A stretch of DNA of 64,000 bases from positions 1 through 64,000 of the forward strand of contig NZ_AJYA01000018.1 in assembly GCF_000265075.1 (NCBI RefSeq). Reading direction: 5' to 3'. Positions 21,771 through 27,901 of this stretch are shown here, in pieces. Each line of letters opens with the position of its first letter. Position 1 is the first letter of the stretch. The stretch comes from Nitritalea halalkaliphila LW7 (GTDB lineage Bacteria; Bacteroidota; Bacteroidia; Cytophagales; Cyclobacteriaceae). Both the position numbers and the translations under genes were made by a program. The notes under the pieces are model-generated. The model was not told the origin of the DNA and did not search any database. It saw only the letters and a program-made list of their open reading frames with translations.

Positions 21771-23158
21771 TTAGTATCCTAAAGTTTTCAACATATTTTC
21801 ACTCGTTTGTTCAGGAGCAAAAAGATGGTGTGTGATAGTCCCATCTTCTGCACGATCCACCAGCACATGCTTGGGAGCAGGAATCAGACAGTGCTGAATA
21901 CCACCATACCCCCCTAATGATTCCTGATAGGCACCCGTATGAAAAAAGCCCAAATACTGTTTCTTGCCTGCTTCCTGCTTAGGCAAATATATATTATACT
22001 GGTGTGCCTCTGAGTTATAATAGTCCATACTATCGCAGGTCAGCCCTCCTAAGTTGATATTGTGATACTCCTTGTCCCAGTTGTTCACGGCCAGCATGAT
22101 GTACTTTTGATTAAGACCCCAGCTGTCTGGCAGCTGCGTAATAAACGAGCCATCGATCATGTACCAAAGTTCCTTGTCATTTTGCAGTTTTTCTTCGAGG
22201 ACGGAGTACAAGACTGCGCCACTCTCTCCTACCGTGTAGGAACCAAACTCCGTAAAGATATCTGGCTCTACCGTATTGTTCTTGGCACACATCCACTTGA
22301 TGTTTTTAATGATTTGATCGGCCATATATTGGTAATCATAATCAAAAAAGACATTCGTTTTAATCGGCCAGCCACCCCCGATGTCCATCGTATCAAGACT
22401 TGGAGCTATTTTTTTCAAATCCACATACTTCTGGATAAAGCGGGTAAGCTCAGACCAGTAATACGCGGTATCGCGTATGCCCGAGTTGATAAAGAAATGA
22501 AGCATCTTAAGAGATACCTGTGGATTATCTTTAATCTTCTCCTCATACAACTTTAAAATATCATTATAGCGTACGCCTAAGCGTGAGGTGTAAAAACCAA
22601 ATTTAGGCTCCTCGTCAGCAGCGATACGAATACCTACCTGGAAAGGCACCTTTACATGCTCGAGATAGTAATCGATTTCTGTGAGGTTATCCAGAATAGG
22701 CACACAGTTTTTAAAACCATCATTTAACAGGCCCGTGATGAGCTCCTTATACCGCTCCCGCTTGAAGCCGTTACAAACGATAAACGTATCCTTACTGATT
22801 TTTCCTTCTTCGTATAACTTGCGAACCAGCGGAATGTCGAAAGTGGAAGATGTTTCGATATGGATGTCATTCTTGAGCGCCTCATTTAAAACAAAGCTGA
22901 AATGAGAAGATTTCGTGCAGTAACAGTACGTATACGAGCCTTATAATCGTGCGTCTGCATGGCATTTGCAAAGTAGGTCTTCGCATTCTGAATACTCTCA
23001 GAAATCTTGGGCAGATAAGTAAGTTTTAAGGGCGTTCCATACGTTTCGATGATTTCCATCAGATTCACCCCATTAAAGGTGAGTTGATTATCCGATACCT
23101 CGAACTCCTTGGTAGGAAAATCGAAAGTTTGCTGGATTAAATCAATGTATTTGTTCAT
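21771..23158 (-). CDS. speA: Biosynthetic arginine decarboxylase (one-base frameshift near 22934)
   Basis: A fold-type III PLP decarboxylase of the Bacteroidota type (about 462 residues), which converts arginine to agmatine for polyamine synthesis. The start at 23158 gives MNKYIDLIQQTFDFPTKEFE. The frame breaks at CGTATACG near 22934. Restoring one T gives YTYCYCTKSSHFSF, which includes the cofactor lysine K83. Later family segments are DIGGGWPI and EFGSYTVGESG. The product type is inferred from overall resemblance to Bacteroidota arginine decarboxylases. Confidence 0.88.
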
Positions 23159-23240
23159 TTCAGCTGTTTTGGTTTGACTAACAAAAATCCAAAATATTTT
23201 CGACACCACCTTATGTTTGGGCACAAATCTGGACTAAATG

Positions 23241-23368: not shown

Positions 23369-24442
23369 TTAGCGCTGAATCACAGCGTCACGTAAGCCCG
23401 GGCTGTTTAACAAGCCACCAAACTCTCCGATAACAGACTCAGGAACTTCTAAACCTTTTGCAGCTTCTACGATAGCCGCTACGAACAGATCATAATCCGC
23501 AGCATTCACTAGACCTGTCATGCGTGGGTTCTGCTCAGGATCATGCGCAGCTACCATGTCTAAACCTGTGTACTGAATGTTAACAGAACCGATAGCTTCT
23601 GCTAAGAATTCAGAGAAATCTTGCACCAGCGTAGCGAAACCTGACGTGTCACCTGCACCCACCTCTGCTAAAAGAACAGAGAAATAAGGTAATAAATCTG
23701 TATATTTACCTTCAGGATTAGAAGCGATAAGCAATACTGTTTCAGTAACCACTGCACGCAAAGGAACAAATCCAGCCTCGATTAACTGACCAGGATTCTC
23801 TGGATCATCGATAAGGCCTGAACCTCCTAAACGTGTGTATAAATCCAGCATCTCATCATCAGCACGCTGCACGATAGGCTCACGTACAGATTCTAATAAC
23901 TCACCCACTGGTCCGATAACATCAGAGCTAGTAATTCCAGCCTGAGCAGCACCTTCTACCACCGCTTGGATGAATAGATCATAATCTGCATTGTTAATCA
24001 AACCATCCATACGTGGATTACGCTGCGGATCATGCGCTGCCTCCATATCTAATCCTGTGTAGGTAAAAGGACCCCCAGTAGCCTCAGCCAAGAAAATGGT
24101 GAAATCATCCACTAACTGCGCAAACCCAGAGAAGTCATCTCTTGCTACCTCGTTTAAAAGGACGCTGAAATAAGGAAGTAGATCATCATAAACACCCCCT
24201 TCATTCGTCGCAATAGTCAATACGGTGTTGGTTACCACAGTTCTCAGGTTAAGGAAACCCTGCTGGATCTGCTGGCCCGGATTATCAGGATCAGGAACTA
24301 AGGTAGTCCCTCCAAGCATAGTGGCGTAAAAGGAATCATCCTCCATCATCGGTGGATCCATCGGATCATCATCACTGCAGGATGAAAATACCAATAGAGA
24401 TCCCACCACGAAACTGGCTAGCCAATAATTAATTCGTCTCAT
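23369..24442 (-). CDS. Lipoprotein with two tandem truncated-globin-like domains
   Basis: A lipobox (VFSSCSDDD) precedes two repeats of about 165 residues. Repeat 2 begins LYTRLGG, the usual start of group-1 truncated globins, and both repeats contain YTGLDM-x-AAHDP followed by an NPRM segment. Next comes NxADYDLFxxAxVEAA, and repeat 1 ends with a VREPIVQR-like helix. This matches the globin F-helix His (in AAH), the G helix (ADFD-like) and the H helix. An insertion rich in D/N/P/G follows LGG in each repeat. Heme binding is inferred only from the conserved His. It is exported and lipid-anchored, unusual for this family. It follows the HMA-like gene by 23 bases. Confidence 0.72.
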   Translation of the reverse strand: MRRINYWLASFVVGSLLVFSSCSDDDPMDPPMMEDDSFYATMLGGTTLVPDPDNPGQQIQQGFLNLRTVVTNTVLTIATNEGGVYDDLLPYFSVLLNEVARDDFSGFAQLVDDFTIFLAEATGGPFTYTGLDMEAAHDPQRNPRMDGLINNADYDLFIQAVVEGAAQAGITSSDVIGPVGELLESVREPIVQRADDEMLDLYTRLGGSGLIDDPENPGQLIEAGFVPLRAVVTETVLLIASNPEGKYTDLLPYFSVLLAEVGAGDTSGFATLVQDFSEFLAEAIGSVNIQYTGLDMVAAHDPEQNPRMTGLVNAADYDLFVAAIVEAAKGLEVPESVIGEFGGLLNSPGLRDAVIQR

Positions 24443-24465
24443 AGTAGTTTAATTTAATTAATTGT

Positions 24466-24900
24466 TTAATTCTCGAAAGCTTTCTGAAAAAAGGCTCCTA
24501 ATCGATATGTAAGTGAGTTCTTGTTAATGGCCGGACAGCTTTGCGCCAGCATTTCATCGGAAGGTTTAAAAACCGATGCCCCCGCATTAAAATCCGCATT
24601 TATCAGCTGCGCTATGTCCGCCGGAGCCGTCTTCCGCTGATCGTAAATAAGTACCACATGGCCCGCTTCAGCGTTCATACGCGCTGTTCGAACACCCTCC
24701 ACTTGAGATACAAATTCATGGATGTCTTTACCCTTCTCCTCGTCTAAGGCTTCAGGAAACTCTATCCGGATCATGGCTTGATGATTTAACCTACCGGGAA
24801 CATCTTGCTTGGGCTTGGTCACCAAATAAATGTGCACTGCCAGCGTCGCCACCAATACAAACACGATGGCCACCGCGCCTAGAATAATTTTTTTTAGCAT
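24466..24900 (-). CDS. Membrane-anchored HMA-like (ferredoxin-fold) protein without CxxC
   Basis: A 144-residue protein. One N-terminal membrane helix (about residues 4-27) is followed by a domain with the spacing of heavy-metal-associated domains: MIRIEFPEALDEEKG, IHEFVSQVEGVRTARM, HVVLIYDQRKTAPADIAQLI. The metal-binding CxxC is missing. A single Cys occurs late, in AQSCPAI. I choose the start at 24900 (MLKKIILG), because the upstream in-frame start adds a non-hydrophobic segment. It is first in an operon with the tandem globin-like lipoprotein, and both act outside the cytoplasm. Confidence 0.65.
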   Translation of the reverse strand: MLKKIILGAVAIVFVLVATLAVHIYLVTKPKQDVPGRLNHQAMIRIEFPEALDEEKGKDIHEFVSQVEGVRTARMNAEAGHVVLIYDQRKTAPADIAQLINADFNAGASVFKPSDEMLAQSCPAINKNSLTYRLGAFFQKAFEN

Positions 24901-26684: not shown

Positions 26685-27901
26685 TTAATCGAAGCGAATC
26701 GCTTTAATCGGCTGTACACCCGCTATTAGCCGCGCAGGAATCAGTAGAACCAAAGCTGTCAACACAAAAACAAACACATTCAGCCCAATCAGCAGGGGCC
26801 AATTCCAAGCAATCGGAACGGCCTCCATATAATAAGCTTCAGGATCCAAACGGATGAAACGATAGCGGTCTTGTAGCATGCCCAGGCCTAAACCTACCGA
26901 ATTCCCGATTAGCATGCCCTTTCCTATGATGCGTAGGCCGTTCCAGAAAAATATGCGCCGAATCAACTGAAAAGAAGCCCCTAATGCTTTTAAAAGCCCG
27001 ATCATCGGGGTGCGTTCCATGATCAGGATAAACAGTACAGAGACCATATTAAAGGCTGCCACAAATAAAATCAGGCCTAAAAAGACGTACACATTATTAT
27101 TTAAAAGTGCCAGCCAATCAAAAATGTCAGCGAAGCGATCTTTCACGCGCTGTAGGCGCAAATCGTAATCCATCAAATCTTCAAGCTCCAAATAGGCTGC
27201 ATCTAAGGCAGTAGGATCTTTTAAAAAGAGAGACAGCCTCCCACCTGATCAGCATTCCAGCCGTTAAGATTTCGGACCGTCTGAATATCACCGATGATGA
27301 TTTTTTCATCAAAAGCCTCCATATACGTTTCGTAGATACCCACGATTTCTACATTGCGGAAGCGCGGGGGATCCTGAACGAAGTAGAGCACAAATTTATC
27401 ACCGAGAGAAAGTAACAGCTTGTTGGCGATTTTTTGGGAAATCAATACTTCATTTACCGCCTGCTCTGCCTCATGGCGGATAAATCGGCCTGCTTTCAAT
27501 GAGGGGCGGAAGTCTACAGTATCGAAATCGGCTGCCACCCCCTTAAAGAGGACACCCTCCACTTCTTCGTCGCCCTTTATGAGTCCCGGCTTGTGGGCAT
27601 AGGACTGCACATGCCGCAGCAGAGGGTGCTCCCGGTGGTCGCGGTAAAAAAAACTTTCCGTGCTCATAGGAACCTCCTCGAAAGCATTGCCCGACATAAA
27701 CTTGGTAACCTGCAGATGCCCTGTAAAGCGGTAAATCTTCTCCCCTACCTCACGCTGAAAACCACCTAGTATCATAAAAGCCAGCATAGATACGGCGATA
27801 CCGATCGCTACACTGCCGACCGCAATGCGGTGTATGGTGCCCGTAAAACCGCCACTGCCCTTAAAACTGATTCTTTTCGCTATGAAATAGGAGAGGTTCA
27901 A
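26685..27901 (-). CDS. LolC/LolE-type ABC transporter permease (one-base frameshift near 27238)
   Basis: The protein has a first membrane segment after the amphipathic start MNLSYFIAKRISFKG, a large periplasmic domain, then three membrane segments in the C-terminal quarter. This is the MacB/FtsX-type permease layout, and the SFKGSGGFTGTIHRIAVGSVAIGIAV start is typical for the Bacteroidota lipoprotein-release permease. The frame breaks in a G run near 27238. One added G gives VGGLSLFLKDPTALDAAYLELE, and the product is about 406 residues. No ATPase gene is adjacent. A role in moving lipoproteins out of the inner membrane is inferred. Confidence 0.85.

Follow-up and report, generated by a model that had tools for sequence, protein, structure and literature searches.

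A lipid-anchored protein of Nitritalea halalkaliphila LW7 (Cyclobacteriaceae) consists of two tandem group-1-type truncated-globin domains and is encoded beside a membrane-anchored protein of the HMA fold. We read the two as a dedicated two-protein envelope module, a heme-binding globin lipoprotein with a membrane partner that would hand over or take heme, and give this reading a probability of about one half. The find suggests that the Bacteroidota cell envelope contains a heme-protein module not described before: a widespread lipoprotein branch of the truncated hemoglobins (trHbs), missed by family libraries, always accompanied by the same membrane partner and often lying beside hemA. Research on truncated hemoglobins has treated them as cytoplasmic proteins of O2, NO or redox chemistry. 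The pair offers a testable entry to the question of how Gram-negative heme proteins outside the cytoplasm obtain their heme, which is open apart from cytochrome c maturation.

The window, i.e. the whole stretch of DNA analysed, comprises positions 1 to 64,000 of contig NZ_AJYA01000018.1. On its minus strand the partner gene comes first, followed by 23 bases and the lipoprotein gene; both reading frames are intact, and a preliminary description made from the letters alone had placed both genes correctly. Their parts are as follows.

23369..24442, minus strand: tandem-globin lipoprotein, 357 amino acids, intact ORF; full-length homologues at 57-74% identity; AlphaFold2 mean pLDDT 85
24374..24442, minus strand: lipoprotein signal and lipobox (..VFSS-C22), then SDDDP; lipobox in all homologues
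23858..24340, minus strand: globin domain 1, residues 35-195; structural match to Shewanella benthica trHb1
24032..24034, minus strand: HisF8 of domain 1, H137 (proximal); invariant in homologues and aligned with the trHb1 proximal His
23372..23851, minus strand: globin domain 2, residues 198-357; structural match to Tetrahymena pyriformis trHb
23543..23545, minus strand: HisF8 of domain 2, H300 (proximal); invariant in repeat-2 homologues
24466..24900, minus strand: partner, a membrane-anchored HMA-fold protein of 144 amino acids counted from its ATG; AlphaFold2 pLDDT 90; Foldseek matches ATP7B and MerP
24817..24897, minus strand: transmembrane helix of the partner in the AlphaFold2 model, residues 2-28, including the near-invariant His23 (28/29)
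24532..24537, minus strand: Cys122-Pro123 of the partner, invariant in 29/29 aligned partners

Scans with Pfam and NCBIfam returned nothing for the lipoprotein; neither it nor those of its relatives that were scanned reach the PF01152 cut-off. A single-sequence search of the PDB gave weak matches (E about 0.6), all of them to group-1 truncated hemoglobins, with the proximal histidines in register. With a family profile built from 13 repeats and single-domain relatives, the significant PDB matches were group-1 truncated hemoglobins only, at E-values from 3e-6 (best 3.2e-6) to 3e-4 and again with the proximal histidine aligned; every match with E < 0.1 was a group-1 truncated hemoglobin or a cyanoglobin.

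The AlphaFold2 model of the lipoprotein, computed with 15 sequences, contains two helical domains at a mean pLDDT of 85. Its first 50 Foldseek matches are exclusively globins, nearly all of them truncated hemoglobins and the top ones without exception; the E-values are modest (best 2e-3), for a two-domain query compared with one-domain targets. In VIA-align, domain 1 superposes on the Shewanella benthica group-1 truncated hemoglobin with Z 16.6 and 1.3 Å over 116/116 residues, and domain 2 on the Tetrahymena pyriformis protein with Z 15.1 and 1.7 Å over 117/117. A chance fold match is ruled out by the sequence-profile match and the conserved histidine. The earlier proposal of an exported lipoprotein with two truncated-globin-like repeats is confirmed by profile and fold alike, with a truncated-globin core predicted in both repeats and the proximal histidine present in all homologous domains. 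The motifs listed at that time are also in place: LYTRLGG in repeat 2, AAHDP and ADYDLF in both, VREPIV in repeat 1. The insert rich in D, N, P and G after LGG, seen then in both repeats, recurs in nearly all relatives as DPxNxGQMIE and folds into a short β-hairpin in the model.

Helix positions were assigned by sequence alignment with true trHb1 sequences and HbN numbering, with no solved structure of the lipoprotein-globin family behind them, and residues were counted over 19 diverse domains. HisF8, the CD1 phenylalanine and the E14 phenylalanine occur in 19/19 each; B16 is Asp in 17 and Asn in 2. Position B9 is Thr or Ser (one Ala), B10 is Ile, Val or Leu, and E11 is Leu or Phe, while E7 is Leu and G8 is Phe in all 19. 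These aligned domains thereby lack the common PheB9-TyrB10 pair as well as the polar residues found distally in high-affinity trHb1, and the distal pocket, as placed by the alignment, is fully apolar at B10, E7, E11 and G8. A family-wide analysis of truncated hemoglobins gives PheB9-TyrB10 as the usual arrangement and links hydrophobic E7, E11 and G8 residues in one clade to low O2 affinity (PMC4720485). Since HisF8 and CD1 are kept and the distal residues are apolar, heme attachment is plausible and O2-stabilising chemistry is not: O2 should be held weakly, and a role in storing O2 or in dioxygenating NO is unlikely.

Both domains share with trHb1 (PF01152; M. tuberculosis HbN and the Tetrahymena and Shewanella proteins above) the 2-on-2 fold, HisF8, the CD1 Phe, the first GG motif and the B16 Asp, which is Asn in the tandem form of the window. 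Unlike these proteins, the window protein is a lipoprotein, of a family that is tandem in Cyclobacteriaceae; it has the hairpin insert after the first GG and an insert of several residues after HisF8, has neither Phe-Tyr at B9-B10 nor Gln at E7/E11, and escapes Pfam. Because it has the trHb1 fold and homology but falls short of the Pfam cut-off and lacks the polar residues of the distal pocket, it is best named a divergent lipoprotein branch. The same genome encodes two ordinary bacterial globins elsewhere.

In the window protein, SDDDP comes right after the lipobox cysteine; in 25/29 relatives, the five positions after this cysteine include at least two Asp or Glu residues. In Bacteroidetes, SDDDD, SDDFE and K-(D/E)2 have been shown experimentally to act as surface-export signals of lipoproteins (PMC5080379). 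The acidic stretch resembles these signals, so surface exposure is predicted: the lipoprotein probably resides in the outer membrane, at its outer face.

The AlphaFold2 model of the partner (pLDDT 90) consists of a single N-terminal transmembrane helix and a ferredoxin-like domain of the HMA type, for which the best Foldseek matches are the metal-binding domain of ATP7B and MerP (E = 8e-5 and 2e-4). This bears out the earlier sketch of a membrane-anchored HMA-fold neighbour, 23 bases away and devoid of CxxC. The fold is that of MerP, CopZ and the ATP7A/B metal-binding domains (PF00403); the partner differs from them in its membrane anchor, in the absence of the CxxC metal site and in its score against the Pfam profile, 15.7 bits, below the cut-off of 24.8. 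Its sole invariant cysteine stands after the HMA domain in Cys122-Pro123, conserved in 29/29 aligned partners, whose alignment columns average 37% identity; 28/29 have His23, which lies towards the end of the transmembrane helix. The HMA fold is thus used here with a different invariant residue pair. An inter-protein disulfide as a general mechanism is ruled out: besides the lipid-anchored cysteine, the mature globin of the window and most others are cysteine-free. The genome G204, from the same genus as the pair-bearing G294, has a piece of the partner interrupted by a stop (G204:C10:493814-493960), perhaps a decayed copy of the gene.

Strong matches of the globin domain (E < 1e-35) occur in 17/395 Bacteroidia genomes. 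Strong partner matches occur in exactly the same 17, each directly upstream of the globin; the weaker partner matches follow after an E-value gap of over 25 orders of magnitude and resemble HMA domains in general. The probability that the two genome sets coincide by chance is about 4e-30 if genomes are taken as independent, which they are not. The two genes share one strand in every family locus examined, and in nearly all loci they are 8-57 nt apart. The pairing held in every further family locus examined, namely in ten more relatives, in named Belliella and Mongoliibacter species, in Psychroflexus and in seven genomes from a phylum-wide search; in the phylum-wide sample, globin and partner were also found in two genomes of other classes. 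That the two proteins work together, as had been guessed from their adjacency in the window, is strongly supported. Comparison of the gene contexts showed no constant third gene. Sigma/anti-sigma genes lie near a few of the pair loci, and such genes are common in the phylum.

The heme-biosynthesis gene hemA adjoins the pair in four families. In four genomes (G294, G161, G210 and G018) it is the next gene downstream, in the same orientation; it is two genes off in another (G034) and a few genes off in a sixth (G046). The order in G161 is ferrochelatase, about 2 kb upstream on the opposite strand, then partner, globin, hemA, hemC, hemD and hemE; hemA adjoins the pair in five further genomes of its genus. 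Using an estimated per-genome rate, the chance of so many hemA adjacencies is roughly 1e-11 with genomes taken as independent and 1e-9 counted by family. Six pair-bearing genomes carry hemA twice, and in five of these one copy lies by the pair. The hemA of the window's own genome is on another contig. By Pfam, hemA and ferrochelatase are both missing from 9/27 pair-bearing genomes, so the tie to heme synthesis is not obligatory; this share does not significantly exceed the class background. A heme-auxotroph hypothesis was rejected: ferrochelatase is absent from 9/17 pair carriers versus 133/378 other genomes (p = 0.19), only slightly and not significantly commoner. Across the pair loci compared, neither heme transporters nor TonB receptors recur as constant neighbours. 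As a separate observation, a second paralogue of hemA, the glutamyl-tRNA reductase gene, is present in several pair-bearing genomes (loci L063, L064, L051 and L046, and genome G049), mostly beside the pair.

We propose the following working of the module. Each globin domain would bind one heme, probably through HisF8, and the lipoprotein would be exported to the outer membrane. There it would carry heme or keep it in reserve, or else bind NO or CO; each of these is more likely than O2 storage. The partner would be anchored in the inner membrane and expose its HMA-fold domain to the periplasm, and through direct contact would either give heme to the globin or receive it; its Cys-Pro and the histidine at the end of the transmembrane helix are candidate transient heme ligands. 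The preliminary description had left it undecided whether the pair senses or binds its ligand, and whether this is heme, a metal or a gas, a choice that sequence alone cannot narrow; the pocket and the hemA genes favour the binding or handling of heme over O2 chemistry. These two features, the Cys-Pro with the membrane histidine, and the strict pairing across the phylum all go beyond that description. Against a heme module it counts that some globin-fold proteins bind no heme, and that a lipoprotein located at the surface could encounter a partner of the inner membrane only while being exported; the distant hemA of the window's genome, the carriers that lack both hemA and ferrochelatase, and the absence of a constant heme-transporter or TonB-receptor neighbour weigh against it as well. 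A more specific form of the proposal is tentative: an undescribed heme-delivery pair, in which an HMA partner whose metal site was exchanged for a Cys-Pro heme site would load a lipid-anchored trHb, and the loaded globin would store, carry or sense with its heme at the cell surface.

Several other readings share part of this evidence. The pair could be an envelope sensor or scavenger of NO, CO or O2, in which the partner relays the state of the globin or supplies electrons. Truncated globins usually bind gases, and the apolar pocket would still admit NO and CO; in cable bacteria, periplasmic trHb domains fused to cytochromes have a proposed role in O2 reduction (PMC11976967). The O2-stabilising residues are nevertheless missing in all aligned relatives, and the pair shows neither a fusion to a kinase, cyclase or reductase nor any of these as a constant neighbour; we regard the gas reading as doubtful. 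A surface hemophore that captures external heme, with the partner as downstream acceptor, would suit the acidic export-type signal of 25/29 relatives and the retention of the pair in genomes with no recognisable hemA and ferrochelatase. We consider it unlikely, as genomes lacking ferrochelatase are not significantly enriched among the carriers and neither a TonB receptor nor a known heme-uptake gene is a constant neighbour.

The HMA fold of the partner, nearest to copper and mercury domains, also allows for a degenerate metallochaperone that handles copper or another metal via Cys122 and His23 and is served by the globin. Here the missing CxxC and the lack of a metal ATPase or efflux gene as a constant neighbour, with heme genes there instead, make the idea improbable. 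Least probable to us is a heme-less globin fold retained for protein-protein contacts: heme-free proteins of this fold exist, the insert after the first GG is large and the distal residues have diverged, but HisF8 and the CD1 Phe are invariant in all domains, both repeats after the duplication included.

In the open-access literature that we searched, we found no description of the lipoprotein globin or of the globin-partner pair, an absence that is no proof. A parallel is lPHCtX of cable bacteria, likewise an extracytoplasmic truncated hemoglobin of one or two domains; it differs by its fusion to a pentaheme cytochrome, its phylum and, in the passages of PMC11976967 that we read, the lack of a described HMA-type partner. 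Closer to home, two genomes of the same order (G069, locus L040; G461, locus L042) encode lipoproteins with a lipobox and a trHb1-like domain of canonical length. These pass the Pfam globin cut-off, have no insert and form a separate, long branch of the tree; an HMA-type partner is absent beside such canonical-length lipoproteins (loci L058 and L059). The G069 gene (L058) has an ECF sigma/anti-sigma-type gene pair in its vicinity.

The closest named relatives with the lipoprotein gene are Belliella, Mongoliibacter and Mongoliitalea, all Cyclobacteriaceae. Outside this family, all members that we read are single-domain lipoproteins. A tandem, lipid-anchored form had been called unusual, and only part of this stands: the two domains are real, but the tandem is limited to Cyclobacteriaceae, because the widespread form is single-domain, and lipoprotein trHbs are not unique to the protein family described here. 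Each of the three groups in the tree, repeat 1, repeat 2 and the single forms, keeps to one side of a well-supported branch, consistent with a single duplication in the tandem ancestor. In Belliella kenyensis, the frame ends after the first domain. Viral contigs yielded no relative, and plasmids gave no match.

Downstream of the lipoprotein, a gene of the arginine/ornithine-decarboxylase type (PF02784; 21771-23224, minus strand) is apparently split over at least two frames. Its pieces are the ORFs 22886-23224 and 21771-22703, corresponding to a pseudogene or a sequencing indel. Likewise on the minus strand, ORFs 26685-27191 and 27221-27901 appear by eye to be halves of one FtsX/LolE-like permease; this second possible frame break nearby (26685-27901) suggests indel errors in the draft genome.
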